From contig WELB01000331.1 of the NCBI GenBank assembly GCA_009602725.1, positions 38,326 through 66,349 of the forward strand: 28,024 nt of DNA, given 5' to 3'. Position numbers and translations under genes: made by a program. The stretch is from Spirogloea muscicola (Eukaryota > Streptophyta > Zygnematophyceae > Spirogloeales > Spirogloeaceae). The notes below the pieces were generated by a model. It was not told the DNA's origin. It did no database searches and was given only the letters and a program-made list of their open reading frames with translations. Below, piece after piece: positions 2,592 to 28,024 of the stretch (within the stretch, counting starts at the first letter, position 1; the number at the start of each line of letters is the position of its first letter).

Positions 2592-3400
2592 CAACGCGAG
2601 ATACTGCTTAGCTGTTGGCCATATTAACTCCTGCAGTTGTGTCTTGTGTTGTGTGATACATGTTTGATGGGAAAAGGAGGCACTTATTCCAGTGTCTCCT
2701 TGCACCCTTAGTAATAGCGTATACGAGTAACACTGACGAGATGTGGTGCTTTGTACGCACCTCATGTAGTCTGTGCACTGTATGGAGAACAGCTCTGACC
2801 ATCCAAGACCAAGCTTTGAATTTATCTGGTTGTGACAAATAAAAAGCTTATAGCTTCAACCTATACGTGCCTGCGATAAACTGTTGTCGATAAAGTCATG
2901 ATGTTTCACTGTGGGGCATCTCCTCTCGCAATTGAGCATGACAATACCATCTTGAAGCATAGAAGGTGTCCCTTCCTGTCATCAATGTAGGTACGGGTGT
3001 GTAGTGGGGTCAGCTTCGCTTCAGCACCTAACTTAGCAGCTTCATTTAGAGCACTCATTGGACAAGCTTAAGGCCATTGGATCTATAGAAGGCTTGCCCT
3101 TGCTGACGAGCGAGCACCAAATACGGGACGAAAGTCCAGGGAGAGATTCAGTCCAGTCTGACTTCGCCATCGGGTTGCTGGTCTGTATTTCATAGGAATG
3201 AAGCTCTTCCAAGAAGAGGCAGCGGCTGTGAAAGCCTGCTTCGAAGCACTAGGCAAGGTCTCAAGGAGATATCAGCGCGGGAATGGCAGACCACTCTACT
3301 CAGAATTAGCTATGCAGATTGCAGATTGTAGTACATGCACGCAGGCCCCCTCGTCGACAGCAGCAAGTCGACATGAATGACAAGCAGAACGGGCTTGTTG
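2592..3400 (+). repeat. Conserved 3' flank of receiver-domain family, copy A
   Basis: Non-coding sequence shared with the downstream regions of copy D (15307-16120) and copy E (21890-22627), and in reverse with parts of copies B and C. Landmarks are a hairpin (GGAGGCAC, 8-base loop, GTGTCTCC at 2686-2709), a CTCCTCTCGCA-like block near 2920, a GTAGTGGGGTCAGC block near 3001 and an AAGAGGCAGCGGCTGTGAAAGCC block near 3215. An AATAAA hexamer occurs at about 2838. The similarity shows that the duplicated unit extends well beyond the coding exons. Confidence 0.55.
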
Positions 3401-3850: not shown

Positions 3851-3875
3851 TAGGGGCTGGAAAAGCCAGCCCCTA
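3851..3875. repeat. Perfect 10-bp stem-loop (TAGGGGCTGG / CCAGCCCCTA)
   Basis: TAGGGGCTGG at 3851-3860 is followed by a 5-base loop and CCAGCCCCTA at 3866-3875, a perfect 10-bp inverted repeat. It is the best-preserved example of the stem-loop that marks this retroelement tail. Confidence 0.7.
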
Positions 3876-4959: not shown

Positions 4960-5402
4960 ACAGATCGATCATAATATTCACAAGACCACAGATTCGGCAT
5001 ACGTTTGAGGTGCTTGCACCTCCCTCCCGGCTTGGGTTCTGAATCGTCAGCACGGACAATTCTTCTGTGGAAACAATGGTTAAGCTTGTCCAGTGAGTGC
5101 GCTGTTGGAGCTGCTAACTTGGTGCTTAGAAGCAACCCCACAAATTCAACCTTACATACTGTCATGACGAAAAGGAAAGGCCTTGCTCTTCCATACAATG
5201 CACATATATATGAGGGGCGTACTAAGCACCATTCCTATTACGTAGTTTTACTCGGATACGCTAGTACTGAGGGTGCAAGGAGAGACTGAAAGAAGTGCAT
5301 CCTTTCCCCATGTAAGATGTAACACACCACATAAGACACACCTAAGCTTCCAATAAATTGCAGGATCGAACATGGCCAACTGCTAAGCAGTATCTCGCCG
5401 TC
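4960..5402 (-). repeat. Conserved 3' flank of receiver-domain family, copy B
   Basis: Reading the minus strand, this matches the flank downstream of copy D. Shared blocks are TATGTAAGGTTG, AGCAGCTCCAACAG(C/A)GCACTCACTGGACA and, nearer the gene, the GCATCC...CTCCTTGCACCCT hairpin region (about 5270-5300). The similarity weakens below about 5000. Confidence 0.5.
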
Positions 5403-8243
5403 CTATACAAATGCTATGAAGCCAAGAAACCGTTTCCAGTCCGGTACAACATCTCCTCGCTTCAGTTGAACTCGTCTCTCAGGTGAGGGCGCTTTGTATC
5501 TTATCAAGTAGTTGCGCAGCCACTTGCCGATTATGCGCTCATCGATTGGCTTTCCCAAGACAGCTGAGTAACCTGACATAGCGTACTTTTTCTGCAACTC
5601 ACAGCCCAAATGTCAGCACGGAAGTCCAGCACGGAAGTCAGCTTGCAGGGCCTTGTTGAGCCGAGGCCTAACAAGCTTGCAAGTACGTGTCAAGCTCATG
5701 AAACCATCAGCTATCTTGGCGCCACAACTTATGCTCATGAAGATGCTGACACTAAGCAAACCAATGGCCACCGTTGTGCTAGACATGAGTCATTACCAGG
5801 TCAGGAACCGTCTCCTTGACAGCAGAGATGCCAATTATGGGCATCTCGGGCTGGTTGCAATCCACTTCGCGTTGTCGAACCAGCCAGCACAGATTCCGAC
5901 AATCGGTAGAAAAGCATCTACACACGAGGATGCAAGCAGAAGGTTATTGACATCGGGATATATTTCAAGCCATTGGACACGGATGTTGCTGACATTGCCG
6001 ACGAGTCACGCGATTATTGTATGGGCTGCAGGTGCGGCCCAAGTAACATGGTCTACGTCAGGGGTAGCAGAGAGAAGTCCACGATGAGTGCATCATCCAC
6101 TTTACCTTTCTCAATGAGGATGGCGTCAAACTTCTCTTGTTCTCCTTCCATGCTGCCAATGGACGACAATATGTCTTCGACATCTGTTCCTATGACCACC
6201 TCAAATTTGGCTCTGTCACAATATACAGCCGAATATCGTCAGTCGTCTATCAACAATGCAATTGTATCACATACCTGACATAGTAGTCACCAGGAGAATG
6301 GAATGACATTGAATGACACAAAGTTGCACTGCAGTTTCCCAGAACTGCAAGTCCGCTATATTGCAGCCAGACGCCACAATGCAGCGGCCAGATTTCTTCG
6401 ATGGAGCAGTCAATGGAAGCAGAAATCATGTATCCAGCTTGATATACACTGTGCACTGCCCAGTGAGGTGCGTCAAGATAGTACATGTCCAATGCATGCT
6501 CGAGATCCCAGACCTTGACAGATACGTCAATAATTAAAACCTGCACAATCTGTCAAAGTTATAAATCAAGCTCTCATAAGGCAAGTCTAAATCCTCGCCT
6601 ACGTGACCAGTCAATGTTGCTTCCCAACCATGACTCCTTGGCATAGGCAAGATACATCCTAGCAACACACAGGCTGCCGCTTCTGTACAGCTTAAGCGAG
6701 AGAATAGTGAAAGCACTGAGGATTGCTGACTAATGAATCTATGATGACATGCCAGAGCTTGCTAGAGGAGATATGAAAGCATGACAACATCCAGAGGGCA
6801 AAGGAACAGGATTGACTTACTTTTGGTTCACGAAATCTGAAAGGATTTGAATCAGAAGACTGTGCAGTGCGATACAAGCTGCTAGACCATATCATGCTCC
6901 TAATGTTGGTGTTGGGTGCACGCCTTGGCGGCGCGAGAGGACCAGTAGGCAGGAGGGACACATCGATTGGCAGCTCGGAGACGAGCTGGGGATTGTGGAC
7001 TGACGGAGATGATGGCGACAGGCACGGCGCTGGGACCAAGAGTGAGGACCCTCCGGAGCTTGAGCTCTTCGGTGGCAGTGGAGGTTGCAAGGGTAGCCCA
7101 GCCGCCGTCGTTGGAGTGTCCAGCAAGGGGTCTGCTGAGGCGGGCATGTGCCCCTGTGCTTGAGCTTCCACAGCTAACGACCTCAGGCCAATGCTGCCAG
7201 TAAGCTGGCCGCCAGAGCTCGTCTTGGCCACTGCCGTTGGCATCAATGCCGCATGCCCAAGGTGCGTTGCCGCCCCTTCCGATGGGTCGCCAGGACTGAG
7301 CCCGGCACTTGAAAGATTGAGCTGTGCCAAGGTGTTGACATCCTGGACGACGACGGGCGTGGGCGTAGAACAACGAATTGCCAGGTGGGCAGGAGCCACG
7401 CAGGTCGGCAGAGCTTGCTCGTTGCAGTCCTCCATGGCCGCCGTTGCCGCCACCACCACCGCCGGCAATCCCGCTGTCTCCACCGCCGCTTCCTTCTGCA
7501 CTGCGCTGCTGTGAGGTACGGCAGCTGGTTGGTGTACAACGTCAACCGCCAGCAAGTCGGCATCGAGGAGAAACAGCAGCGCGGCGTTCGCCAGGGCCTG
7601 TGCCGTTGCAGCCGGCAGGAGCACGATGCCGATGTCGTCACCGTCCTCTCCTGACACTGCTGCAGCTTGGGCAGCTCCCCAGTGCTGGCGGGTCGCATCA
7701 CCCACAGTCAGCTCTGCGAGCACCGCTGCCACCCGGGGCTTTACAACTTCACGCACTACCCGAGAGCTTCACGAGTCTCCGTACGCAAGGGCCAGCCGCT
7801 CCATCACCTGGTCCAGCGGTGCGTGACGTTGTAAAGCCAGCGGGGGTCGTGTCAGGGCGGCAGCAAGAGAGGAGCTGGGCGCACTCACAAGCGGCGCCAA
7901 TGAAGCAAATTCACACCGTTAGTAGGTGTATCTTGGAGCTCGATAGTCTACGTCTCGCGAGTCTAAGCTGCTTATAGCTGCCCACCTGCGCTGGTGGGGC
8001 CTTGCTGCCGTCGCCGTTCTCCTCCGTCCTGAGCGTCTCTCCTTTGCAGTTGCTGTCGTCAGCGGCGATTGTGACTGCGACGGTGTCCGCCACGGAGCCG
8101 GTCCGTATACGGGCACGCGCCGCTTTGCTCAGCGGCGGCTCGGGCGCGGGTGGCGATGGCTCGCCGCCGCCGCCGCCACCGGCTGCGTCAGGAAGCGGGC
8201 TGCCGTGGTCGTAAGCCGCCTCGTCTCTGTCGCCGCCGGCCAT
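5403..8243 (-). pseudogene. Receiver-domain family, copy B (longest copy with intact exon 1)
   Basis: Exon 1 is 7986-8243, ATG to donor GTGGGC, 86 codons beginning MAGGDRDEAAYDHG and rich in Gly, Pro and Ala, with no stop. Exon 2 is open from about 7756 down to 6831 (donor GTAAGT) and is Ala/Ser/Pro-rich with no recognised fold. It includes DDIGIVLLPAATAQALANAA and a long Ser/Pro tail. Receiver exon 1 is 6450-6540, receiver exon 2 6048-6212, receiver exon 3 ends at 5797, and the last exon is 5403-5591. Defects: the exon 2 acceptor CAG present in copy E is missing, exon 2 is out of frame in its first part, receiver exon 1 is 4 bases shorter than in copies A and E, and the putative phosphoacceptor strand reads FDAILIEKG with Asp replaced by Glu. 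The last exon keeps GKPI. The 5' end looks gene-like, but the whole is probably not functional. Confidence 0.5.
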
Positions 8244-8339
8244 TGCGGGGCGGGTGCCGGCTCGGGCTCGGGCTGAGCGGCGGCCTCGTCGGAGGGGGCG
8301 GCGGCGGCGGCGACGGCGCTGGGGGCAGCGGCGGCGGCG

Positions 8340-8579: not shown

Positions 8580-8790
8580 GGGAGCAGGGTGCTGCCCTTC
8601 CCGGTGGCTCGGTGCCTTTGGGTCTGGTGTCCTGCTACCGTATGCGACTGTATGTCCCTGCAGCGCTCCCAAGCGCTTGCTTTGCACCGCCGCGCTGGTC
8701 GCGCCCTTGCAGCAGCCTCTGGCTTGCGCAGCGGGGTTGCTCTTCCTCCCCTCAGCTCATCTGACTTCCTACTGCTGACAGGGGGGTATT
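8580..8790 (+). pseudogene. Retroelement polyprotein tail, frameshifted fragment
   Basis: The peptide blocks CYRMRL, SLQRSQALALHRRAGRALAAAS and the terminal LLLTGGY stop at 8790-8792 match the C-terminus of the fragment at 1-423. They lie in two frames, so there is a frameshift near 8645-8660. The 3' half of this fragment forms the left arm of the 180-bp inverted repeat. Confidence 0.45.
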
Positions 8791-9212
8791 GAGGGCGCCC
8801 TGTCTGCCTAGCCTTTGGCTCCGTCATGAAGACCTGTATGCATCTGGCTGGCATTTCACAGCCGATTCTTTCATATCAGCAGCCGCTTTCTCTGATCGGA
8901 CATACTTGAATTAAGAGCTGCCGTGAAGAAGTGGCTCTCTGGATGGGGGCAAGGGCTGTGAAAGCCAGCCCGAAAAGAATTGGTAAAGGTTCGAAGGGGC
9001 CAAATGACGGAGAAGCTGCCCTGAAGGCGTAGCAGAGAAAGCGGCTGCTGATATGAAAGAATCGGCTGTGAAATGCCAGCCAGATGCATACAGGTGTTCA
9101 TGACGGAGCCAAAGGCTACGCAGACAGGGCGCCCTCAATATCCCCGTGTCAGCAGTAGAAAAGTCAGCTGAGCTGAGGGGAGGAAGAGCAACCCCGCTGC
9201 GCAAGCCAGAGG
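8716..9212. repeat. Long inverted repeat, arms about 180 bp, spacer 138 bp
   Basis: The left arm 8716-8894 and the reverse complement of the right arm 9033-9212 align over their whole length with roughly ten differences by eye. Each arm runs from CCTCTGGCTTGCGCAGCGGG through TTGAGGGCGCCCTGTCTGC and GCATCTGGCTGGCATTTCACAG to CCGCTTTCTCTG. The 138-base spacer holds a retroelement tail (GGGCTGTGAAAGCCAGCCC, about 8954-8972). The arms carry the 3' end of the retroelement polyprotein, so two tails face each other. Outside both arms the similarity stops abruptly. Confidence 0.85.
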
Positions 9213-10574: not shown

Positions 10575-11045
10575 GCTGCCGGTGACGAGGGGTCCTTGTA
10601 TACTGAGATCTGACATCTGCGTAGCTGCTTTTGTGGTTGGCCTTTTCCGCGCTAGAATCCTAAGCTGGCTTATCACAGCCGCTGCCTCCTCTTCTTTGCT
10701 TCACGGCAATGTTGTCATGCTCGACTGCGACGAGGAGATGCCCCACATAACGTGATAATTTTTATCGACAACAGAAACTGCAGGCACATCCATTAGAAGC
10801 TATAAGCTCTACGTGTGTCACAAAAGCGTTAATCCCAAAGCTTGGTCTTGGATGGACAGAGCGTGTCCTCCATACAGTGCATAGACTACATGAGGGGCGT
10901 ACAAAGCACCATCCCTATTACATAGTGTACTCGTATGCGCTTCAATTATGGGCGCAAGGAGACACTGGAAGAAGACACAAGACACACCAGATCAGAGAAA
11001 TTGCAGGAATGAAAATGGACAACAGCTAAGCAGTATCTCAACTTG
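10575..11045 (-). repeat. Conserved 3' flank of receiver-domain family, copy C
   Basis: On the minus strand it contains the hairpin region (TCTTCCAGTGTCTCCTTGCGCCC, about 10955-10980), AGCTTATAGCTTC, TGGGGCATCTCCTCGTCGCAG and AGGAGGCAGCGGCTGTGATAAGCCAGC, in the same order as the flanks of copies D and E. About 250 bases between the last two blocks are deleted relative to copy D. Confidence 0.5.
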
Positions 11046-12862
11046 CTATACAAATGCCATAAAGCCGTCAAACGGTTTTTTGACCTCTGCAATATCTCCT
11101 CGCTCCACTTGAGCTCGTCTTTCAATTGAGGGCGGCTTGTATGTTGTTAAGTAATTGCATAGCCACTTGCCAGCTAAGCGCACATTAATTGGCTTTCCCA
11201 AAGTAGCTGAGTAACCTGACTTAGCGTACTCTTCCTGCAAGTGACAGCCCAGATGTCAGCACGGAAGTCCAGCACGGAAGTCTGCATGCAGGGCCTTGTT
11301 GTGCCAAAGTCTAACAAGCTTGCAAGTACGTGACAAGCTCATGGGACCATGAACTATCTTGGCGCCACAACTCATGCTCACGGAGACGCTGACACCAAGT
11401 AAACGCATGGCCCCCGTGGTGCTGAAACAGCCATCATTACCAGGTCAGCACCCTTCACGTTTGCAGTGATACCAATTATGGGCACCTCTGGCACTTCGGA
11501 ATTTACTTCGTGTTGTCGAAGCAGCTGGCACGTTCCCAAAAAGCTTGTGGAAAACCATCTTCACACGAGGATGCAAGCTAAGTGTTACTGCAATCGGGCT
11601 ATAACTGAAGCCATTGAACATGGACGTTGATGACATTGCCGACGAGTCACGTTATCATTGTACTGGATGCAAATGCGGCCCTAAGTCAGATGGACTGCGT
11701 AAGGTGTAGCAGAGAGAGATCCACAGTGAATTTATGATCACTCCACCTTTCATCAAGGAGGAAGGCGTCAAACTTCTCTTGTGTCTTCTCCCACATCCGA
11801 AGGAAGCACATCATGTCCTCAACATCTGTCCCTGTTGTCACCACTTCAAAACCAGCTCTGTCACCAAAGTACAGCCGTATAAAAGTCAGTCGTCTATAAC
11901 AAACTGCAAATATACCACATGTCTCAAGTTGTCGTCACGAAAAGAATGGGATAACGGTAGATGACATAAGCGTTGCACTGCAGGTTTCCAGAACCGCAGG
12001 CCAGGTATACTGCAGCCTGACATGACATCGCCGCGGCCAGATCTCTCTGAAGGAGCAATCACAAATCCGATGTGATGTATCCAGCTTGATATTCACTGTG
12101 CAATGCCCAGTTGAGGTGCTTCAAAATTTTACTTGTCCCAGTGCCTGCTTGACAACCTGGACATTGACAGGTCCGTCGCCCATGACCAAAACCTGCACAA
12201 GCTCTCAAAGTCACGTACAAAGCTCTTATCAGGAAGTCTTTGACATTTGATCAAGCTGACCACTTAATTTTGCTTCTCATTCTTGACTCTTTGGCGTAAG
12301 CAAGCTCTATCTTCAATGCACACAGGACTGCCGCTTCTGTACAACTTAGAAAAGCCGTTGTATTAATATAAATGAGGATCGCTAAAAGCTATATATATAC
12401 GGACTTGCCAGAGCTTGCCAGCTAAGATATGAATGTATGACTTTACCCAGAGGGCAAGAAAGAGGGGTGACACACCTTCAGTCCACGTGATTTGGAAGGA
12501 CCTGAAGCAGGCGACTGCGCAGTGGTCAATGAGCTGCTAGGAGATAACCTGCTCCCAGTGTTGGTGCCGGAAGCATGCCTTGGCGACGCTAGAGGACCAG
12601 TAGGCAGGAGAGACATATCGCTTGGCAGCTCGCAGACGAGCTGGGGATCCTGGGCTGACAGGGATGATGGCGTCAGGCACGGCGCTGGGACGAAGAATGA
12701 GGGCCCTCCGGAGCTTGAGCTTTTCGGTGGCAGGGGAGGTTGCAGAAACAGCCCAGCCGCCAACGTCGGAGCGTCCATCAAGGGGTCTGCTGTGGCGGGC
12801 ATGGGCCCCTGTGCTTGAATTTTTGCTGCTGACGACCTCAGGCCAATGCTGCCAGCGACAGC
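11046..12862 (-). pseudogene. Receiver-domain family, copy C (5'-truncated)
   Basis: Exon 2 remnant is 12476-12862 (Ser/Pro-rich, donor GTGTGT). Receiver exon 1 is 12097-12192, one base longer than in copies A and E and therefore frameshifted to a stop. Receiver exon 2 is 11690-11857 and gives the best receiver-like peptide of all copies for this part, AGFEVVTTGTDVEDMMCFLR followed by FDAFLLDERWSD. Receiver exon 3 ends at 11441. The last exon is 11046-11234 (EEYAKSGYSATLGKPI). The donor after receiver exon 2 is changed from GT to CT. Its 5' end is fused to a stray piece of another last exon at 12874-12934, beyond which copy D runs in the opposite direction. Confidence 0.5.
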
Positions 12863-12873
12863 ACGTGTTGCTG

Positions 12874-12934
12874 GGGGCGCTTTGTATGTTGTTAAGTAGT
12901 TGTGGAGCCACTTGCCAGCTGTGCGCTTGTGAAG
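12874..12934 (-). pseudogene. Stray fragment of the receiver-family last exon
   Basis: On the minus strand this encodes HKRTAGKWLHNYLTTYKAPP, the middle of the family last exon, equivalent to about 15160-15230 in copy D. It lies between the truncated 5' ends of copies C and D and reads in frame into copy C's exon 2, creating a chimeric 227-codon open frame (12443-13126). It is evidence of a sixth, otherwise lost, copy or of template switching during rearrangement. Confidence 0.65.
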
Positions 12935-15306
12935 CCCCGCACGGCAGCGGTGCTCGCAGAAATCACTGTTGGTGGTGCGACCCGCCAGCAGTGGGGAGCT
13001 GCCGAAGCTGCGGCGGCAGCGGCAGCGGTGCCAGGAGAGGGTGGACGACATCGGCATCGTGCTCCTGCCGGCTGCAACGGCACAGGCCCTGGCTAACGCA
13101 TCGCTGCTGTTCCTCCCCTCTGCCAAATTGTTGGCGCTTGAGGCTGTGCACCAGCCAGCTGCCGTTCTTCACAGCAGCGCAGTGCAGAAGGAAGAGGCGG
13201 AGGAGACAACGGCGTTGCCGGCGGCGGTGGTGGCTGCAACGGCAGCAATGGCGGACCGCATAAGAGCAAGCTTCGCCGACCTGCGAGGCTCCTTCCAAAT
13301 TTACGATCCGTTGTCCTTCGCCAGCGGTCGTCGTCAGTGATGTCGAGAACGTGGCACAGCAAAATGCTGCAAGTGCCGGGCTGAGTCCTCGCGATCCTCG
13401 TGACCAGTCAAAGGGGTGGATATACAATCCAAACAGTGCCTTATGGGAGCCAACGGTGGTGACCATGACGAGCTCTGGCGGCCAGCTTGCTGGCAGCAAT
13501 CGCCTGAGATCGTCAGCTGCAGAAGCTCAAGGACAGGGGCCCATGCCCGGTTCAGCAGACCCCTTGCTGGAAGGTCCGAGGACGTCGGCTGGGCTGCCCT
13601 TGCAACCTCCACTGCCACCGGGAAGCTCAAGCTCCGGAGGGTCCTCAGTTCTTGTCCCAGCGCCATGCCTGCCGCCATCATCTCCTCCATCAGTCCAAAG
13701 TGCCCAGCTCGTCTCCGAGCTGCCAAGCTATCTGTCTCTCCTGCCTACCGGTCCTCTCGAGTCGCCAAGGCATGCTCCCAACACCAACAAAGGGAGCAAG
13801 TTCTCGTCTAGCAGCTCATTGACAACCGCACAAGTACCTGCCTCAGGTCCTTCCAGAACATGTAGACCGAAGGTAAGTCACCCCTCTTGCTTTGCCCTCT
13901 GCATGTTGCCACAGTCTCAATTCTCCACTAGCAAGCTTTGGCATGTCAGTATGAACTTGTTCAGCAGTCCTCAATGGTATCAAGCATAAATCTAGCTTAG
14001 TCCTTATAGAAGCGGCAGTCCTATTTGTTTCGAGATATATATCTATCTTGCCTACGCCAAGGAGTCAAGATCGGCAAGCAACATTGACGTGGCACGTGGG
14101 TGAAGATTGAGACTTGCCTGATGAGAGCTTTGTACGTGACTTTGAGAGCTTATGCAGGTTTTGGTCATTGTCAACCAAAGAAATGCCGCGTCGAACTGGT
14201 TCGTCGAACGTGCACCGTACAGGTACTATCTTGACGCACCTCAACTGGGGGGCATTTCACAGTAATGTTTAGCTGGATACATGACATCTGCTTTTTGGTT
14301 CCTCCTTCAGAGAGATCTGGCCGCTGCGATGTAGTGTCAGGCTGCAATATAGCTGACTTGTAGTTCTGGAAATTTGCAGTGCAACTCTTGTTTTATTTAA
14401 AGTCATCCCAATTTGTTGGTGACAACTGTTTTAGATACGTGCTATGAATGCTTAGTGTTAGAGATGATTGACATGAATTTGGCTTTTTTGGGTGGCAGGG
14501 GCGAAATTGAGGCGGTGTTAGTGGACGATGACGAAGAATTGATGGGGCGCATGGTTGCACGGTCACACTACTACTGGAACTTTGACGCCTTCCTCATTGA
14601 TGAAAGGTGGAGTGATGATGAACTCACCATGGACTTCTCTCTGCTACCCCATAAGCAGTCTATGTTACCTGGACCGCATTTGCATCCGGTTCAACGAACG
14701 CAGAATTCGTCGGCAATGTCAGCAACATCCTTATTCAATGGCTTTATGTACAGTCCCACGAATGTGACGTTCTGCTTGCATCCTCGGGTGAACTTTCAGT
14801 TACACTAAACATGTCGAACTGTGCAAGCTGCTTCGACAACACGAAGTGGACCGCAACAAGCCAGAGATGCCCAGTATTGGCATCTACAACAATGTGAAGG
14901 GGTCTGACCTGGTAATGATAGCTCTTTCAGCACCATGGGGGCCATGCGTTTGGTTGGTGTTAGCATCTCCGTGAGCATGAGTGTGGCGCCAAGATAGCTT
15001 GTGCTTTCATGAGCTTGTTCACGTACTTACGAGCCTTTGAGACTTCGGCACAACGAGGCCCTGCAAGCGGACTTCCGTGCTGGACTTCCGTGCTGACATC
15101 TGGGCTGTCACTTGCAGGAAAAGTACGCAATGTCGGGTTTTTCAGCTATCTTGGAACGGCACATTAATGAGCCCACAGTTGGCAAGTGGCTTTGCAACTA
15201 TTTAACAACGTATGAACCCCCTTCAAATGAAAGCCGAGCTCAACTGAAGCGAGGAGACATTGCAGACGTCATGAAACCGTTTTACGGCTTTATAGCGTTT
15301 GTATAG
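12930..15306 (+). pseudogene. Receiver-domain family, copy D (5'-truncated, frameshifted)
   Basis: Homology starts inside exon 2 at KPRTAAVLAEITVGGATRQQ and runs to the donor GTAAGT after 13872, but three frames are used in turn (switches near 13020-13050 and 13330-13350). Receiver exon 1 is 14158-14261, 9 bases longer than in copies A and E, and its acidic patch after beta-1 is replaced by VNQRNA. Receiver exon 2 is 14499-14663 (GEIEAVLVDDDEELMG, then FDAFLIDERWSDDE), joined in phase 2. Receiver exon 3 includes HVELCKLLRQHEVDRNKPEM and ends at 14911. The last exon is 15118-15306, where GKP has become ERH. It lies head to head with copy C and is a pseudogene. Confidence 0.5.
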
Positions 15307-16120
15307 CTAAGGCGAAATACAGCTTAGCTGTTGGCCATGTTACCTCCTGCAGGTGTGTCGTATTGTGTGATACATGTTTAATAGAGAAAGGAGGCACTTC
15401 TTCCAGTGCCTCCTTGCACCCTTAGTAATGGGTAGACGTTAAGACTGACGTAATAGGAATGGTGCTTTGTTGCCCCTCATGTAATCTGTGCACTGTATGG
15501 AGACCAAGCTCCGACCATCCAAGACCAAGCTTTGGGCTTTTTGGCTGTGACATACAAAGAGCTTATAGCTTCAACTTATCGATGTGCCTGCATTTACTAT
15601 CATTATACAATTCATGATGTTATTGTGGGGCATCTCCTCGTCGCAGTGTTGAGCATGACAATATCATGAAGCATAGAATGTGCTCTCTTATTGTTGTCAC
15701 TGTATGTAAGGTTGTGTAATGGGGTCAGCCTCGAAGCACCTAAAATAGCAGCTCCAACAGAGCACTCACTGGACAGGCTTGAACCCATTGGATCTGCAGC
15801 AGGCTTGTCCTTGCTGACGTATGGAGCAACAAAGCCGGGAAGGTCCAGGGAGAGGTTCACCTCAGTCTGGAACGCCAGCAGGTTGCTGGTCTTTGTTCCA
15901 CGGAAACGAAGGTCTTACAAGAGGAGGCAGCGGCTGTGAAAAGCCAGCTTGGAAGGAGTAGGCAAGGTCTCAAGGCGATATCAGCACGGAAAAGGTCAAC
16001 CACTTGACACAAAGTAGCTATGCAGAGTCTCAAATCGTAGTATATCCACTCAGGAGCCCCTCGTCAACAGCAGCAAGCCGGCATGACTAGCAGAAGGGGG
16101 TCATAGCCCCGGCAAGTCCT
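15307..16120 (+). repeat. Conserved 3' flank of receiver-domain family, copy D
   Basis: This is the fullest version of the flank shared by all copies. It contains a perfect hairpin, GGAGGCAC at 15390-15397 and GTGCCTCC at 15406-15413 with an 8-base loop, then TGGGGCATCTCCTCGTCGCAG near 15625, a GGGGTCAGCCTCGAAGCACCTAA block near 15721, and AGGAGGCAGCGGCTGTGAAAAGCCAGC near 15921. The last block resembles the retroelement tail, so the unit may have captured one. Confidence 0.55.
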
Positions 16121-16639: not shown

Positions 16640-17430
16640 CTAAATCACACAGGTATGCAAGTGTTTGTTATCACGAGAGGGTGCTCAATCACCCCTCCTT
16701 AGAAGAGAGTGCTCTCGTCTTGGACGCGGCCTCGACGAGCGGCATTTGGTTGTGCGATGGCTGCCTTCGCCACCCTCCAGCGGCTAGCTGGCCGCCCTCA
16801 GCCTGACCACCCGTTGCTGATGTCAACATCATGGGTCATCTACTTGACCTGCCAGACCTTCTCTTAGGCGGCACCTCAATCGAGCACAACAAAGGAGATG
16901 TAAGAAGGCGTATTCGTGCTCAGCAGAGGCTGGTGTGGGGTCGAGGAGGATGTTTGAGAATGTCAGCTGGGGCATTGCGCCTCAGCGTCACTCAGCTGCA
17001 GGCAAGTGAGCCTTGGGCTGTCGGTTGATGCAGCCTGTCAAAGAACGTACATCTCGGGCACATAGATGAGAAATGCAAGAGGGATAAGCGTGGAACCATC
17101 ATATACCTCCTGCGTACCTCCTCTGCGGATGCTGCATCCTTTTACCAAATGGGGCTGCTTGTTGTTGTGCTTCTTCTTCTGCATGCATTTCACACCTTAT
17201 TGTCTTCGCACAGCAAGTCATGACTCCAAAGAAGGCAAAGGGGTTGATATCAAGTTGGCCCTGGTACTTGCAGCTTCGCATATCTTGCATAGACTCAAGG
17301 AGCCATTGGAAAGGACGCCTGAAAGCAGTCCAGACAAACCGCGTCCGTATGTAGGACAAATGTCGGCTTCAGCCTGGCTGGCTGGACATGACATCCAACG
17401 AAGGCACTTTACCCACGTCGCTCACATAAA
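16640..17430. other. Unassigned stretch
   Basis: Plus-strand open frames lie at 16831-17028 and 17066-17548, the second with a hydrophobic run GCLLLCFFFCMHFTPYC near residues 30-45. I recognise no domain. The 3' part of the second frame runs into the repeat segment at 17430, so it is not a clean gene. I regard this as decayed repeat or unique spacer DNA. Confidence 0.35.
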
Positions 17431-17820
17431 GCCATGTGCGAGCGCGCCCCCGACGAGGGAGTGTCTTAAGGATGAGCCAATATCCAAGCAGGAGGAGCAG
17501 CAGCTCCTTGCAAAAGGCGAGGCCTGCGTAAAGCCAGCCCACATATAACTGAACCTTGCACTCACTCTACGTAGCCCACCTCCACATCGTAAGGGCGAAC
17601 GTCGGGCTTCGATGATAGGATGGAATTTGATATCCAGCGGTCGTCTCATTGGGAGCGCCTCGCCCGATGGTTCAGTACGTCGGGCGGCGCCAGGCCGCCG
17701 GGCGAGGCGCGCGCCGAGGCTTGCATCTGCGCGCGGGGAGTGGCGCAGCCCCCAATGTCGGGCTCTGCTGGCGGGAGGGAAAAGGTCCCCTCCCATCCCT
17801 CCCTCCCTCCCTCCCTCCAG
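17430..17820 (+). mobile_element. Retroelement 5' segment
   Basis: It matches 3420-3850 (+) and 9200-9480 (-) through the blocks CGTAGCCCACCTCCACAT, GATGATAGGATGGA, GGCGCCAGGCCGCCGGGCGAGGCGCGCG and GCGCGCGGGGAGTGG. It ends in a TCCC tetranucleotide run at 17796-17818 and leads directly into an endonuclease-like coding fragment. Confidence 0.5.
17796..17818 (+). repeat. TCCC tetranucleotide run
   Basis: Five perfect TCCC units plus a partial sixth. The run lies exactly at the junction between the retroelement 5' segment and the endonuclease-like fragment, and may mark the recombination point that removed the element's centre. Confidence 0.8.
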
Positions 17821-18849: not shown

Positions 18850-19073
18850 ACCGACCAGGCCCAGATCGGCACGGGCTGCAAGCAAAGGAGAAAGAATCCA
18901 CGGAATGCCAGATGGACACCACGGGGCCAAAGGCGTGGGACCCAGCCGGGCGGGCAGAAATATCTCCTCCGTCATTCTTCCGTCGCCGCCGCCAGCGCCG
19001 CCGCCGCCATCGCTGAAGCGGCCGCCGCCGAGTCCCAGCCGTCGCCGGTCGCCGAGCCGACACCCGCCCGGCA
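18850..19073 (+). repeat. 5' flank of receiver-domain family, copy E
   Basis: GC-rich sequence whose last part (CCGAGCCGACACCCGCCCGGCA before the ATG) matches the bases before copy B's start. It includes CCGCCG runs at about 18975-19030. The rest differs from the flanks of copies A and B, so the similarity is limited to the start region. Confidence 0.4.
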
Positions 19074-21889
19074 ATGGCCGGTGGCGACCGAGTCGAGGCG
19101 ATAGACGTCCACGGCAGCATGCTGCCTGATGCAGGCGGCAGCGGAGGCAGCGGCGAGCCTTAGCCACCCGCGTCCGCGCCGCCGTTGAGCAAAGCGGCGC
19201 GTGCCTGCATAAGGACCAGCCCCGCGGCGCGCACCGCCGCCGCCGCCACCGCCGCCGCCGACGGCAACTGCAAAGGAGAGACGCTTGGAACGGAGGACGG
19301 CGACGTCGGCAGCGGGGCCCCACCAGCGCAGGCGAGCAGCTATAGCAGCGCATACTGGACTAATGAGCTCAAGATACAAATACAATGCGTGCATTTGCTT
19401 GGCGGCGCAGCTCATGAGTTCGCCCAGCTCTTTTCTTGTTGCCGCCCTGACACGGCCCCCGCCACCCCCGCCGGCGTACCGTGGACCAGGTGATGGAGCG
19501 GCTGACCCTCGCGCATGGCAAATCGTGGAGTTCCGCGTTGTGCGTGAAGTTGTAAAGCCCCGGGCGGCAGCGGTGCTCGCAGAGCTCACCGTGGGTGACG
19601 CGACCCGCCAGCACTGGGGAGCAACCGAAGCAGCTGCAGTGGCGGCAGGAGAGGGCGGCAACGACATCGGCATTGTGCTGCTGCCAGCTGCAACGGCACA
19701 GGCCCTGGAGAACGCCGCGCTGCTCTTCCTCCCCTCTGCTGGGTCGCTGGCCGTTGAGACTGTGAAGCAGGCAGCTGCCGTTCCTCACAGCAGCACATTG
19801 CAGAAGGAAGCGGCGGTCGAGACGGCGGCGTTGCCGGCGGGAGTGGTGGCGGCAACAGCAGCCATGGAGGACCCCAAAGAGCAAGCTTCGCCGACCTGCG
19901 TGGCTCCTTCCAGTTTGACAATCCATTGTTCTTCGTTGACCGTCGTCCTCCAGGATGTCAACAGCATGCCACAGCTCAATGTTCCAAATGCCGGGCTCAG
20001 TCCGCACGACCAAACGGAGGGGGCGGCAACGCACCTGGCGCATGCGGCTGTGGTGCCGATGGCGGTGGCCAAGACGAGCTCTGGCGGCCAGCTTGCTGGC
20101 AGCTACGGCCTGAGGTCGTCAGCAGCAGAAGCTCAAGTACAAGGGCCCATGCCCGCCTCAGCAGACCCCTTGCTGGACACTCCGACGACGGCGGCTGGGC
20201 TGCCCTTGCAACCTCCACTGCCACCGGGAAGCTTAAGCTCCGGAGGGTCCTCTTTTGTCCCAGCGCCGTGCCTGTCGCCACCATCTCCGTCGGTCCAGAA
20301 ACCCCAGCTCGTCTGCGAGCTGCCAAGTACACTGTCTCCCCTGCCTACTGGTCCTCTCCCGTCGGTGAGGCATGTTCCCACCACCAAAACTGGGAGCAAG
20401 TTGTCGTCTAGCAGCTCATTCATCACTGCACAGTCCGCTTCTTCAGGCCCTTCCAAGGTACGTGGACCGAAGGTAAGTCACCCCTCTTTCTTTGCCATCT
20501 GGACGTCGTTATAGTGCTGTATCTCCTTTAGAAAGCTCTGGCATGTCAATATAGCTTCATTATTCAGCGGTTTTGTTAGATATCAAAATTAAGTCTAGGT
20601 AAAGTTGTACAGAAGCGGCAGTCCTGTGTGTTTCCAAGATATATCTTACCTAAGCCTAAGGAGTCAAGATCGGGAAGCAACATTGACTGGTCCCGTAGGT
20701 GACGATTGAGACTGCCTGATGGGGCCTTTGTACGTGACTTTGAGAGCTTGTGCAGGTATTGGTCATAAGCGACGGATCTGACGATGTCAAGGATGTGGTA
20801 CATGCACTGGACGCTTACTGTCTTGATGCACCTCAAGTGGGCATTGCAAAGTGAGGATTTAAGCTGGAAACAACGAATTCCAGCTTGAGTTGATAGCTTC
20901 TTCAGAAACATCAGGCCGCTGTGAAGTGGTGTCAGACTGCAACATACTCGACTTGCAATTCTCAAAAGTGCAGTGCAATCCTCTTGTAACTTGATTCCAT
21001 TCCATATCATTCCATTGTTTCGGGAAACACTTCAGAGACGTGTGACAACGTGTGCAGTTTCTTATTGACGACTGACATGTATTCGGCTGTTTTTTGGTGC
21101 CAGAGTTGAGCTTGAGGTGGTGGCATGGGCACACATGATTTACAGAAGAGAGATTCGTGGAGAGAAGATTGACGCCCTTCTTCTTGATGAAAGGTGGAGT
21201 GCTGATGAGCCTGATCGTAGGTCCATCTCTATTAAGCCTTATGCTGTCCATCTTACCTGGGCCGCATACGAAGCCAGCTATAATCATGTGAATCGACAGC
21301 AAAGTCAGCAACATCATCATACAATAGCTTCATGTATGCCAAATTAGAACAATTTGCTTGCATTCTCGTGTGAAGGTTCAAAGTCGAGAAGAGCTTCAAA
21401 ACGTGCCGGCTGGTTCGACATTTCGAAGTGGATCGTAACCTGCCAGAGATGCCCATTATTGGCATCTCCGCAGAAGTGAAGCGTGCTGACCTGGTAATGA
21501 TGGCTGTTTCAGCACCATGGTGGCCATGCGTTTGGTTAGTGTCAGCATCTCCGTGGGCCTTAGTTGTGGCGTCAAAGATAGCTTATGGTCCCATGAGATT
21601 GTCATGTACTCGCAAGCTTATTAGACTTTGGCACAACAAGGCCCTGCAAGCGGACTTCCGTGCTGGACTTTCATATTGACATTTTGGCTGTCACTTGCAG
21701 AAAAAGTACGCCATATTAGGTTACTCAGCAATCTTGGGAAAGCCAATCAATGAGCGCACGGCTGGCAAGAGGCTTTGCAACTACCTGACTACATACAAAC
21801 CGCTCTCAACTGAAAGACGAGCTCAACTGAAGCGGGAAGACATTGCAGAGGTCAAGAAACCGTTTAACGGCTTCATAGCATTTGTATAG
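19074..21889 (+). CDS. Receiver-domain (REC) family protein, copy E, most complete copy, possibly disabled
   Basis: Exon model: exon 1 19074-19331 (86 codons, same length as copy B), exon 2 19411-20472 (354 open codons, acceptor GCAG, donor GTAAGT), receiver exon 1 20756-20850, receiver exon 2 from 21104 to about 21251, receiver exon 3 ending 21493 (donor GTAATG, start uncertain), last exon 21701-21889 (stop TAG). Exon 2 is Ala/Ser/Pro-rich without a recognised fold. The C-terminal exons give VLVISDGSDD (beta-1), VELEVVAWA (beta-2), IDALLLDERW (phosphoacceptor strand), LPEMPIIGISAEVKRADL (beta-4) and KKYAILGYSAILGKPI (beta-5 with Lys-Pro). This is the order and spacing of a response-regulator receiver as found in hybrid histidine kinases. 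No kinase or ATPase domain is visible. Defects: exon 1 has TAG at 19161-19163 where copy B has Ser TCG, and its donor is GC. Translation could begin at the ATG at 19414. The function is unknown beyond the receiver inference. Confidence 0.45.
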
Positions 21890-23707: not shown

Positions 23708-25050
23708 ATGCAGGCTGCAGGCCTCTCGATTTGCCTCGCTGCGCGCCCTGCGGCCGCTGCCGCGCCGCTCCGAGCTCGCAACTCGTGAGCGCCTTCAAGC
23801 CCGCCAATGCACTCCGCCAATGAGCCTCTTTAGAAGGGCCCCACTTGCGGCTCAAGTACTCGCAGTCGCTAGTCGCAGCAGTTCTTGATCAGTCAAATGT
23901 CTCATCCGGAGCTCCAGACTGGGCCTGGACTGCTCAGCTGTGTGGTACTGGGGCCGGCCTTACACTACCACAGCTGCAAGTGATGGCAAGACAGCAGCAC
24001 TCCAAGCGGCAATGCTGGCGCTTGGCCAGATTGCAATGACCAAGCAGGTGGTCAAGGCAACTCGGCTCCGGCAGGCTCGAAGCATGAAGGCGGGCTCAGG
24101 CGAGAAGCAATCGTGGCTGGGCGGGGTGCCTTAGATAGCAGGGTGGCCGCAGTCCCTTGGCGGTATGTGCGCTTTGGTCTGCAATTAATGCCTTTATCAA
24201 TGTTCCAGGCAGCAGAGCCAGCAGCCTGGTGGTACGGGCGTCGGGCGAAGGGACGCCGGTGGAGGGCAAGAAGGAGCCGTTCGGCCTCGGCGGCCCCGGG
24301 ACGTACTTTGGCTTTGGCACAAAGCAGGAGATCTACGTCGGCCGTATGGCCATGCTTGGCTTCACGGTGCGTCACAGCGCGGCCGTGCTATGTTTGCCAG
24401 CTCCGCTAGCACTCACCCTTTGGTCGCGCCACGACTGGCACGAAAGGTAGTGCAGCGACTGGCGTGCACTATCCCATAGCCTGCTTGATCTGAGATACAA
24501 CTCTGTTATGTCATGAATATCTTGTGTGCAGACCGGAATCATCATGGAGGTGCTCACAGGCAAGGGCGTGATAGCTCAGCTCGGCCTTGACCCTACCATC
24601 GTGCGCTTCCCTTTCCTGCTCGGCCTCGTCTTCCTACTTGTCGGCGGCCTGCTTGGTGGCTATGTTGTCATCAACAACCCGCCCAATTTTGACCGTGCGC
24701 CCGTCAACGAGGGTGCCGGCGTGCCACGCGACCCACTCAGAACATTCGACTCTGCGAACCTTGACCCTCTCACGACATACACACGTGGAGGGATCGTCAC
24801 ACGGCCCGATGGCCAGGTCAGTAAAGTGCTTACCGGTCCCCATATGTTACCGGTCCCCATATGAAGCCCCACGTATTGGTGGCAAAGTCTGCATGTCTGC
24901 TGTCTTGGCACATACCCACATACCTACGAATCTGTCATTGAATGCAGCAATGTCACGTGTCATTGTCTCACTACTGAACCGGGTCATTGATGCTTGCAGA
25001 AAGGGCGTGAACCTTACGTTTCAGACATTGAGCCTCCCAAGCAGGAGTGA
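23708..25050 (+). CDS. Chloroplast two-helix light-harvesting-like protein (PsbS/SEP-related)
   Basis: Four exons, 23708-23784, 24213-24366, 24532-24816 and 25000-25050, join in frame with GT-AG introns of 428, 165 and 183 bases to give 188 residues. Residues 1 to about 36 (MQAAGLSICLAARPAAAAAP... ending SSLVVRA|S) look like a plastid transit peptide. The mature part has a PsbS-like entry (YFGFGTKQEIYVGRMAMLGF) with the ExxxGRxAM chlorophyll-binding motif of the LHC superfamily, then MEVLTGKGVIAQLGL, very like PsbS after its helices. A second hydrophobic segment, FPFLLGLVFLLVGGLLGGYV, follows, then a polar tail of about 70 residues ending EPPKQE. PsbS has four helices and ELIPs three, so this is a two-helix form, as in the SEP/LIL proteins. 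A thylakoid role in photoprotection or pigment handling is inferred. The start ATG was chosen because its exon 1 ends at GTGAGC and restores frame with exon 2. An ATG at 23685 in another frame also gives a basic peptide but does not splice in frame. It converges with the phosphatase gene 250 bases downstream. Confidence 0.88.
24830..24863 (+). repeat. 17-bp perfect tandem duplication in intron 3
   Basis: TTACCGGTCCCCATATG is present twice in succession, at 24830-24846 and 24847-24863, 14 bases inside intron 3 of the PsbS-like gene. Confidence 0.9.
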
Positions 25051-25301: not shown

Positions 25302-28024
25302 CTAAAGGTCGACAGTTGGAAACGTCTTCCTCCAGTCATCTAAAATAAGTGACCACCAAGTTCTGAAGGAAGTGGCCACAGATGCTAATATGCGATACCA
25401 AGCACTGGTCCTATCCTCTGAGTGAGGCTTGATTGAGCAAACATCCTCGAAGCTGTGCAGCAAGTGAGGGCCTGCAACCTTCTCCTGCAGTACCAATTCA
25501 CATGAATATCGCTATTAGAGGAGGGTCATAGAAAGATGTCGAGGTTATCTCCATTTGAGATATGATAAGTGGGTCACTTATACCTTGGAGACTTCAAATA
25601 AGCAAAAAATGGCAGGTATTACCTTGAAATCCTGGAAAGGGCAGAGTATTGTGCCACCACAAGCCTGGTGGCAAGAACTGGTTGTTAATACGTCTCAGAA
25701 GAGCCAATCAACGTACAAAATCTGCAGGAAACTGCTCTGCAGAGGAAAGCAAAGTGCAGACTTTCATAGCAGAGTAATGGTTGACGAAGTAAATCCTGAA
25801 CGCTTGGCAGGGAGCAAGGGGTAACCTACTGGCATGACCACAGGCTGCTCGTTGTGAAGGGCCATGACGTAATACTTCCACTGATCCTCCTGACTGTCAG
25901 TGGCAGCCACAGTGGATGCACCATGCACGTCGCTAGGCACCCTTGTGGGATTGTCAAGGGTGGATGCCTCCTGTCCATCCTTGTCGCGTGAGCCTTGGCA
26001 GCGGTACAGGACCAAAGCCGTGTTGCCGCCAAATGGTGCCACCTCGGCTCCACGCCACGTCCGCACGACTGGCGGGTATGGGAGCTCTGGCAACGGGAGC
26101 TTCTCCTTGACTTTCTCCACCTCTGTTTGCGAAGGAGCAACCACGACAGTGCAGAACACAATTCGTCATGGATTAAGCTTCAGTTAGGAACAGCAAGATA
26201 AGCATACATTCAGGAGCTCTCGAGTCATCGTTCAAGCAAGAGCACTGACCGTTAGGACCACCAAGGAAGAGGCCCAGGAGGCATGTCAACGGCACCAGCG
26301 TCTCAGCATGCGCGAATCGCAGCTTTGCTCGTTGCCGCACTCGACGTTGCCAGTCTGTGCCAGTGGTTGCCTCTTGTCGCTCGCTGTGGCCTGCAGCGAC
26401 TGCATCGTCCATGGCTTTGACCATGTCACGCAGCAGCGCGACGCCCATGCGATAGTTCACGGCTGCGCCGTAGCCCTTGAGAAGGTGCAGCTCGACGTCA
26501 TCTGCCCACTCAAGTACTGCAGCCTCACTAGCAGTGAATAGGGCGCACGCCCTATCCTGCCGGTCGAGCAGCGCCGCCTCCTGGACAGAGGCATACCCAG
26601 AGCCACAAGCACGAATGAGGCATTGCACGCCGCAAAAGTGAGAGTCTGGACAGCCACCACACTGTGCAGCAGGTGGTTGCAGTATATCAGGTGACATTTG
26701 GCATTGAAGCACAGATAGCTAAACCCTAACCCTGACTCTGTCTGAAGTTGCTTACAATCTAAAGCTCTATGACTGGCGCTTGATAGCATTGACGGTCTAC
26801 AAGCAGGATCGTGGAAAAAAGCATGTGGGTGCCAGAGAACCTGTTTGCACAGGAGCCAGAGGGAGGCGACGTCGGCGGCACCAGGGCTGAGGTACGGATG
26901 GCGCTTCGCAACAGATGCAGCAACATCCGCATAGGCACGGGCCTGCAGCCTCGCCACCTCGGCCTTCATCGCCTTCTTTGACGCTGCGTACGCTGCACAG
27001 TTGTCGTGGAAGCGCAGGTGGATGTCATGCGCCAGCGTGTCGGTGGTGACCGCAAACGCCCGGAAGCGGTCCGCGCCGAGACTGCCGTTGCCCTCAAAGA
27101 GGCCCAGGCCAAAGGCCACAGCGCTCGCCGACGCCCGCGGAACCTGCACATGCGACGAGCGCTGGCATGCCGGTGACCGCCGGGTACCCACAACCATCTT
27201 CCAGGAGCTAAGCCAGCCATGACGGGGCCCTTCTCAGCCTTAGTTGGTCAAGGTGTCAAATTGTGGATTTAGAGATACGGGATCAAACCCCGTCGCTCGC
27301 CGAGGACGTGGGGCAAAGGTGGGGCGTACTTGCGTGGCGGCAATCACGTACGCGCTGTGGTGGTAGGGAGCGCCGAGCAGCGCCGGGAAGCGGCCGCGCA
27401 GCCGCCGGCCCAGCGCGAACATCTCCTCCTCGCCGCCAGGTATCAGCTCGCCGGAGCCGCCGCCGCCGCCGGCGTCGTCCCAGGGGTCCCGGGAGCCGCC
27501 GTCGCCGGCCATCCAGGCGGGGGCGTCGCTGGCCGCCGCCGCCGCCGCCCGCAGCCTGGCCGCCAGCTGGCTGAGCTGCCGGGCGCGCTTCCGAGTTGGG
27601 CCTCTCGCGCCATGCCGAACCTGCGCTTGCAGAGTAAGCGTAAGCAGAAGCGACTGGTGGGCTCGCGATACGATCCCAAACTCCTAACCCCTCAACCCGA
27701 AACCGTAAACCCGCGATGAGGAGCGGCAAAGCTGGCGCTCGGCAGCGTCCCGGCGGCGCATCGGACCGCCGCCGGCCCGGCATCGCTGCCTGCCACGAGA
27801 AGGCTACGCCGCCAAGCCCCAGAGACCTAATCCTAACCCAAACCCTAACCCTGACCGCCAAGCGCTATGACCCTAGACCCCGGCGGCAGCTCCGGGCGAG
27901 ATGGGGCAGCCACCAGGAGGTTGACGTGGATGGCCTCGCAGCCGGCGGCGGCGGCGGCGGCCACCGCGTCGCCGTCGGCATGACCCCGCACGGCGGCGCC
28001 GTAACTGCGGCGGCGGCGGCGGCG
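25302..28024 (-). CDS. MINPP1: Multiple inositol polyphosphate phosphatase (histidine acid phosphatase), 5'-partial
   Basis: The seven exons in transcript order are 27914-28024 (partial), 27330-27620, 26841-27143, 26250-26580, 25830-26122, 25664-25623 and 25302-25484. All junctions are GT-AG and in frame, giving 517 visible residues. The catalytic motif VRHGARGPT (RHGxRxP) starts exon 2, preceded by CEAIHVNLL at the end of exon 1. Next come EEEMFALGRRLRGRFPALL, then AATQ-VPRASASAVAFGLGLF across the second junction, LLKGYGAAVNYRMG, and the proton-donor motif RFAHAETLVPL (HAE). The C-terminal part includes EVAPFGGNTALVLYRC, YYVMALHNEQPVVMP, and a 14-residue microexon CGGTILCPFQDFK. The family hydrolyses InsP6 and lower inositol phosphates, and 2,3-bisphosphoglycerate in animals, in the secretory pathway or outside the cell. 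The signal peptide should lie beyond the window. The Arg run at the very edge (28007-28024) may be intronic. The last 35 residues are unlike relatives as I recall them and may be mis-spliced. Confidence 0.92.
26720..26736 (+). repeat. Telomere-like motif in phosphatase intron 3
   Basis: TAAACCCTAACCCTGAC, about two CCCTAA-type units, lies inside the intron 26581-26840. Confidence 0.7.
27680..27856 (+). repeat. Telomere-like motifs in phosphatase intron 1
   Basis: CTAATCCTAACCCAAACCCTAACCCTGACC at 27827-27856 contains three to four CCCTAA-type units. A degenerate stretch (CTCCTAACCCCTCAACCCG and GTAAACCC) lies at about 27680-27714. Both are within intron 27621-27913. Confidence 0.7.

Follow-up and report, generated by a model that had tools for sequence, protein, structure and literature searches.

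Kinase-less receiver repeats of the alga Spirogloea muscicola very probably derive from a PHYX1-type phytochrome histidine kinase

Introduction

How has a receiver domain, split over short exons, come to be repeated in both orientations in a stretch of algal DNA where no kinase is seen? The question is raised by a part of contig WELB01000331.1 of Spirogloea muscicola (C331:38326-66349, 28,024 nt), the whole of which we call the window; positions given without a contig are those of the window, and other contigs are designated likewise (C16, C123, etc.). A sequence-only reading of this DNA had described a five-copy family, amplified directly and in inverted orientation, in which an Ala/Ser/Pro-rich N-terminal half precedes a receiver. 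The amplification is borne out by the repeat analysis, which finds five related copies, three on the + strand (A, D and E) and two on the − strand (B and C). Five is the number for the window; across the genome, the last receiver exon is present at a minimum of 21 loci. At three of these it belongs to phytochrome kinases, referred to as the parents and described below.

Exon structure of copy E

The intergenic DNA upstream of copy E (16815-17763, +) is collinear with the stretch that separates the PHYX1-type gene from a PHL-type gene on C16: C16:669957-670671 is 75.8% identical to C331:55140-55869 (blastn), and a further matching piece reaches position 17763. The PHL-derived 5′ part of E (19043-19481, +) gives a 75% alignment to C16:671349-671806. 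It has an ATG at 19074 and, at 19161-19163, an in-frame TAG in place of the TCG of copy B, and it retains the remnant of a GARP helix (WTNELK..LLGGA). At 19482 the homology moves to C16:663752, and the following linker exon (19482-20472, +), which is homologous to the linker between the kinase and the receiver of the phytochrome, is part of a frame that is open from 19213 to 20514 and has a GTAAGT donor at 20473.

The receiver is encoded by the subsequent exons, all on the + strand. The exon at 20756-20850 covers beta-1 and alpha-1 (VLVISDGSDD...), the border common to the family being at 20814. The exon at 21104-21193 extends from beta-2 to the phospho-acceptor Asp (VELEVVAWA..IDALLLDE) and ends at an in-phase GTGGAG donor. 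The intron that follows extends from its donor at 21194 (GTGGAGTG) to an acceptor ending at 21375 (GTGTGAAG), and keeps the frame. The exon at 21376-21493 (FKVEKSFKTCRLVRHFEVDRNLPEMPIIGISAEVKRADL), whose splice sites are in phase, was absent from the earlier list, in which the peptide MPIIGISAEVKRADL was quoted with no exon assigned to it; this is the exon that encodes it. The last exon (21701-21889), again with in-phase splice sites, contains beta-5, the Lys of GKPI, the C-terminal tail and the stop. Among 20 aligned copies, GT-AG borders are present in 16 for intron 1, in 18 for intron 3 (21193/21376) and in all 20 for intron 4.

The end of exon 2 requires a comment. At the place of E 20815, 18 of the 20 aligned copies, including all three parents, have GT, and E has TT. 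This difference, together with the higher receiver scores obtained with the shared border, suggests that copy E has probably lost its normal exon-2 donor. The alternative donor of E, GTGAGG at 20851, would lengthen the product by 12 residues in the same phase; the parents have no GT there. It is important to note that the spliced models of all copies are predictions made from sequence alone.

The five motif peptides of the sequence-only reading, from VLVISDGSDD through GYSAILGKPI, are thus encoded in order in copy E. Its exon list had to be amended: the last exon (21701-21889) is unchanged, the exon given as 21104-21251 ends at 21193, the exon at 21376-21493 has to be added, and the border of the exon at 20756-20850 is doubtful, with the donor probably lost.

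Identity of the receiver

The profile search proposed in the same reading returned a match between spliced E, with exon 2 at 20756-20850, and Pfam Response_reg (PF00072), of 20.0 bits (E-value 8.2e-4), yet below the curated cut-off of 30.2 bits; with exon 3 extended to 21251, the score is 14.3 bits. This longer exon 2 was used to score E, and also for the analyses of residues, the PDB profile and the first analysis of omega. With the shared exon-2 border, the score of the C16 parent rises from 40.7 to 53.6 bits and that of the C331 parent is 54.2 bits, while copy c199_217 goes from 24.6 to 30.5 bits, above the cut-off. It is the only one to pass among six kinase-less copies other than E that were scored with this border; four are at 21.1-29.2 bits and one has no match. 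The profile does not match c158_1 or D.

Taking E-values up to 1, a Response_reg match is found in 9 of the 11 open-frame copies with the longer exon 2 (three of which are parents), and in 7 of 8 with the shorter exon 2 (two are parents; E, B and D are outside this set), the best value being 1.9e-14. Across the copies, receiver matches are more frequent than chance. A profile made of 11 copies retrieves histidine-kinase chains such as SLN1 from the PDB (best E-value 6.1e-4). The predicted E protein is 57-58% identical to the parents, with exon-by-exon homology and intron places in common. The receiver predicted in copy E is therefore descended from a bona fide receiver: the identity proposed earlier from motifs holds by homology with the parents, although the score of E itself is under the cut-off.

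We take the acidic pair, the phospho-acceptor Asp, the Ser/Thr and the Lys to be the catalytic residues of the receiver. The parents retain all of them. In E, the first acid is replaced by Ser, and the second acid, the acceptor Asp, the Ser and the Lys are retained. At least one parental catalytic residue is missing in each of the eight kinase-less copies that are open with the longer as well as with the shorter exon 2: the first acid and the acceptor Asp in c199_208, the first acid and the Lys in c331_97, c199_222 and c199_217, both acids and the Lys in c158_1 and c12_951, and several residues in D. The acceptor Asp is kept in seven of these eight.

The N-terminal 420 residues of E have no Pfam match. 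The Ala/Ser/Pro-rich N-terminal half that had been noticed is indeed present, and it corresponds to the phytochrome linker between kinase and receiver. In the parents, a weak YopE match to the same Ala-rich linker (13.5-15 bits for a cut-off of 25) was regarded as an artefact of composition, and a weak DHQ_synthase match was treated as another.

The parent phytochromes

The order of domains in the parents is GAF, PHY, PAS, HisKA, HATPase_c, a long Ala/Ser/Pro-rich linker and the receiver. On C16, C123 and C331, a single exon frame of 782-814 aa contains HATPase_c (84.7-88.5 bits, three out of three) and then a linker that resembles exon 1 of E; upstream, the C16 parent has HisKA (32.4 bits) and PAS (28.5 bits). 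Exon pieces joined by eye give 26.1 bits for GAF (cut-off 22.4) and 27.5 bits for PHY (cut-off 27), the values in single frames being under the cut-off (19 bits for GAF, 13.7-20.6 bits for PHY). Compared to the PDB, the joined pieces match plant phytochromes with E-values down to 1.4e-23. The C331 parent ends 12.9 kb upstream of the window, and its HATPase_c (C331:21987-22352) is 16 kb upstream. The earlier remark that no kinase is visible is thus correct for the window, in which none was found, but C331 also carries the parent hybrid kinase.

The GAF domain of the parent departs from that of plant phytochromes at the chromophore Cys (Lys), the next His (Gln) and the Asp of the DIP motif (Ala), which we assume to be residues of the bilin site. 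The H-box is HEIRNPLNG. In the Zygnematales and Coleochaetales, PHYX1 is described as lacking the known bilin Cys and keeping the kinase His, and sometimes a receiver (Li et al. 2015, PMC4525182), and PHYX1 and PHYX2 are retained in several streptophyte algae (PMC7027972). The parent is alike, since the charophyte PHYX1 of the former work has a histidine kinase module with its His, sometimes a C-terminal receiver, and no bilin Cys (PMC4525182). The parent fits this published description, and we call it PHYX1-type by description rather than by tree. The copies of the window differ in that they consist of linker and receiver only, some with PHL sequence in front, an arrangement which is not part of the description of PHYX1 in the available portion of that article (PMC4525182).

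The genome of S. muscicola is described as triplicated (PMC7994812). The PHYX1-type parents form a triplet (C16, C123, C331), in which blocks that are 82-89% identical cover the gene and continue into the DNA upstream of it; PHY genes also occur as triplets, on C48, C72 and C146, and on C16, C101 and C175. On each of C48, C72 and C146, there are two copies, 14-16 kb apart, of these better-conserved phytochromes (PHY).

Copies in the genome and in the window

When 471 contigs (153 Mb) are searched with the exons of copy E, a count by hand gives 21 or more loci that contain the last receiver exon, on C331, C199, C158, C123, C12, C16 and C107. According to HATPase_c profile matches, a kinase adjoins this exon at three of them (C16, C123 and C331), and the remaining 18 are classed as kinase-less. 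The HATPase_c scoring around the loci covered 38 of 141 candidates, and the upstream DNA that was compared belongs to only part of the copies, so that some of the 18 may yet have a kinase. With HATPase and HisKA of the parent as tblastn queries, only the three parents matched among the loci examined and the window. In a FastTree analysis of the DNA alignment, 15 kinase-less copies are split from the three parents with a support of 1.0 (c158_11 and c123_117 were left out of the tree, and the fragments at C158:19162, C199:230102 and C158:9107 are outside the alignment). Those kinase-less copies that were included in the tree thus make up a single clade.

In the window, where the borders of copies A to D are approximate, copy A (814-3300, +) consists of a 5′-truncated linker and a receiver, with a one-base frameshift in its fourth exon. 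Copy B (5100-8257, −) has the PHL-to-linker junction of E and a Glu in place of the acceptor Asp; its receiver frame stays open only with a non-GT border at the end of exon 3. Copy C (10740-12856, −), also a 5′-truncated linker and receiver, has a frameshift in exon 2. It meets copy D head to head, and a stray piece of the last receiver exon is found at the junction (12881-12934, −; 72% identity by tblastn, E-value 1.7e-4). Copy D (12925-16010, +) is likewise 5′-truncated; its receiver frame is open and divergent, and the AG of its exon-4 acceptor is gone from the usual place. Reading through at GT-AG borders thus fails in A, B and C, D is minus an acceptor and E minus a donor.

Other elements were observed in the same DNA. 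An inverted repeat of 129 nt (8766-8894 and 9033-9161) is 96% complementary, with a spacing of 138 nt, and palindromic hairpins GGGCTGG-NN-AAGCCAGCCC are present at 459-477, 3854-3872 and 8953-8971 (five strand matches at three sites, for 0.18 expected). A recurring protein remnant, EFVPLAVDVHGALGSQWLDLLARL..QVYRMRLSVSLQRSMAHALHLRAG.., is encoded at 1-423 and at about 8650-8760, and also in L006, in L014 and upstream of c12_951; a Pfam search gave no match for it, and we presume that it stems from the C terminus of a LINE-type element. A histidine acid phosphatase gene of at least two exons lies at 26254-27629 on the − strand (His_Phos_2, 51.9 and 24.8 bits). At 24200-25050 (+), exons encoding FGFGTKQEIYVGRMAMLGFT... 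resemble by eye a small thylakoid protein, with no match in a single-frame Pfam search; we read them, as an assumption, as PsbS- or LHC-related.

The PHL-type sequence in front of the linker

The C16 parent is followed on the same strand, at a distance of about 5 kb, by a degenerate PHL-type gene, which has a Myb_CC_LHEQLE match of 24.6 bits (cut-off 29.1) and a GARP-like remnant. A better PHL gene, X309, is on C309 (Myb_CC_LHEQLE, 39.6 bits; its Myb match is under the cut-off). We assume that the GARP label is appropriate for the PHR/PHL family and for the X309 sequence.

The homology of copy E switches from the PHL-type gene to the phytochrome linker at 19481/19482, and B has the same junction; the blastp E-values against the degenerate gene are 1.9e-16 for the 5′ part of E and 1.2e-21 for that of B. 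In the copies of C199 and C12, it is the coil exon of PHL that continues in frame into the linker. The in-frame fusion of c199_217, for instance, matches the coil exon of X309 (blastp, 5e-16) and the linker of the parent (3e-23), and c199_208 matches a PHL coil exon (2e-16). With the LHEQLE profile, c199_208 has an E-value of 0.21, under the cut-off, c12_951 and c199_217 have no match, and the coil is not seen in copy E. Nine of the 18 kinase-less copies were found to be preceded by PHL sequence (B, E, c331_97, c199_208, c199_217, c199_222, c199_247, c158_1 and c12_951); among the other nine, A, C and D are 5′-truncated and PHL sequence is not shown in front of the remaining six.

A profile search of the 18 receiver loci gave no GARP match. 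Among the loci examined, a degenerate GARP is found by tblastn only in L006 (C199:230-232k) and in the C16 gene beside the parent. In L006, a GARP stretch with a stop is ahead of the linker, and a LINE-like remnant interrupts the copy after receiver exon 2; the 2 kb that follow contain no receiver exons. On account of this GARP stretch, the GARP domain may have been part of the first fusion. An intact DNA-binding domain upstream of c199_208 and c12_951 was considered and rejected, Pfam having found no domain in 7.5-7.8 kb of DNA.

The breakpoint on the PHL side is in the GARP exon in B and E, as opposed to the coil exon in the C199 and C12 copies, which would be explained either by one event and a later deletion or by two events. 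Pieces of the interval between PHYX1 and PHL on C16 match C331 at 38.5-39.0, 55.1-55.9 and 57.4-57.8 kb, so the array sits at the corresponding place.

Constraint and decay

With the longer exon 2, the receiver frame is open in 8 of 17 kinase-less copies (E, D, c331_97, c199_208, c199_217, c199_222, c158_1 and c12_951) and broken in nine. With the shorter one, ten are open and seven are broken, the additions being B, with its non-GT border, and c158_11, in which the start of exon 2 is defective.

The ratio omega was estimated on 10 sequences with our own codon likelihood script, which gives a one-ratio likelihood of -2342.84 compared to -2342.77 for IQ-TREE on the same sequences. Broken copies and D were left out, as were B and c158_11 in the run with the shorter exon, and the p values are uncorrected, with three tests per run. 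With the longer exon 2 (159 codons), omega is 0.14 in the parents, 0.67 in E (p 0.25 against 1), 0.48 on the four homeologous tips (p 0.012) and 1.04 on the other kinase-less branches. With the shorter exon 2 (147 codons), the values are 0.12, 0.69 (p 0.31), 0.42 (p 0.005) and 1.02, respectively. The parents are under strong constraint, E and most of the kinase-less branches look neutral, and the four homeologous copies elsewhere look constrained.

The identities of exons and introns can be compared in the same manner. They are 95.1-95.5 and 84.1-88.1% for the parents, 96.0 and 90.1% for c331_97/c199_222, and 93.1 and 88.3% for c158_1/c12_951, against 80.1 and 80.7% for E/A and 83.0 and 81.5% for E/c12_951. 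Between E and B, C or D, the receiver exons are not more similar than the introns, and exons are even less alike than introns in E-B, in E-D (68.0 vs 75.8%) and in C-D (68.6 vs 76.3%); this may be due to relaxed decay, a biased alignment or rapid evolution. The copies of the window, E included, are most likely decaying or neutral.

Origin and possible function of the repeats

With high probability, in our opinion, the repeats derive from a PHYX1-type phytochrome histidine kinase and have lost its kinase; tandem duplication would have created a chimera with the PHL-type gene that was then copied. We infer that one end of a local tandem duplication fell in the linker exon of the phytochrome and the other in the PHL gene, which would have placed PHL 5′ sequence ahead of the linker and receiver exons. 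Since the PHL-type gene is only about 5 kb downstream of the C16 parent, such a duplication would explain both the fusion and the array, and a duplication spanning both genes is the simplest reading of the sequences. The chimera would then have multiplied as tandem, inverted and dispersed copies, some of which would predate the triplication of the genome.

What the copies do, if anything, can be discussed by considering other explanations. That E and its relatives are working stand-alone response regulators, phosphorylated by histidine kinases, is improbable. E does keep the acceptor Asp, the Ser and the Lys and a linker frame that is open from 19213, and terminal-branch omega is below 1 in four copies elsewhere (0.48 or 0.42, p 0.012 or 0.005). 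On the contrary, all eight open kinase-less copies lack at least one catalytic residue that the parents kept, E has a stop in its first exon and has lost the common exon-2 donor, its exons are about as conserved as its introns, and its omega (0.67-0.69) is not separable from 1, the other kinase-less branches being at 1.02-1.04. The opposite proposal, that every kinase-less copy is a functionless pseudogene spread by segmental duplication, deserves more credit but is still doubtful to us: it accounts for the receiver frames that are broken (9 or 7 of 17, depending on exon 2) and for exons that show no constraint in the window, but not for the pairs c331_97/c199_222 and c158_1/c12_951, whose exons are more identical than their introns and whose omega is less than 1, nor for the exon-1 frames of 505-535 aa that are still open in three copies.

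The presence of copies in both orientations and on several contigs, with LINE-like remnants and palindromic hairpins around some of them, could also evoke a mobile element that captured a receiver. We regard this as very improbable, for in the pairwise comparisons made the homology blocks end at differing places, flanks and introns having been copied as genomic segments, and the array is at the interval that corresponds to PHYX1-PHL on C16.

Under the derivation from the phytochrome and the PHL-type gene that we favor, the constrained copies (C331:97k/C199:222k and C12:951k/C158:3k) would be pseudo-receivers, incapable of normal phosphorelay, which, if active, would bind proteins that interact with the parent phytochrome or with PHL proteins. 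PHYX1, which lacks the usual chromophore site of phytochromes, has no established role that we are aware of. More speculatively, and we consider this unlikely as a whole, the re-use of a phytochrome receiver behind a PHR/PHL N-terminus, in a duplicate that had lost the sensor and the kinase, may have founded a lineage-specific family of pseudo-receivers before the triplication, with some copies selected, which perhaps couples PHYX1 to PHL-controlled genes. Such proteins may compete for the phosphorelay of PHYX1, or pair with PHL coils.

Likenesses with known regulators should be qualified. PHR/PHL factors, which combine GARP and MYB-CC, are the source of the 5′ part of nine copies, via the coil exon or the first exon, but no intact GARP was found ahead of a receiver, and remnants are seen only in E and at C199:230-232k. 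Plant type-B response regulators have a receiver with GARP in one gene; the repeats share with them a receiver and GARP-family ancestry in one gene, but the order is opposite, the receiver has another source and no GARP is intact. In the pseudo-response regulators of land plants, a receiver-like domain has lost its catalytic residues, as here, but the origin is separate and most open copies (7 of 8) keep the acceptor Asp. In the open-licence full-text literature, we found nothing on a fusion of MYB-CC and receiver with phytochrome, on MYB-CC or GARP together with a streptophyte response regulator, or on pseudo-response regulators or type-B regulators in Zygnematophyceae.

No group is more closely related to land plants than the zygnematophyte algae. 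A receiver that has been split from its kinase, apparently beside the parent gene, would illustrate the stepwise re-wiring of the output domain of a phytochrome, and the chimeric copies may serve as natural deletion products for asking what the receiver of PHYX1 binds.
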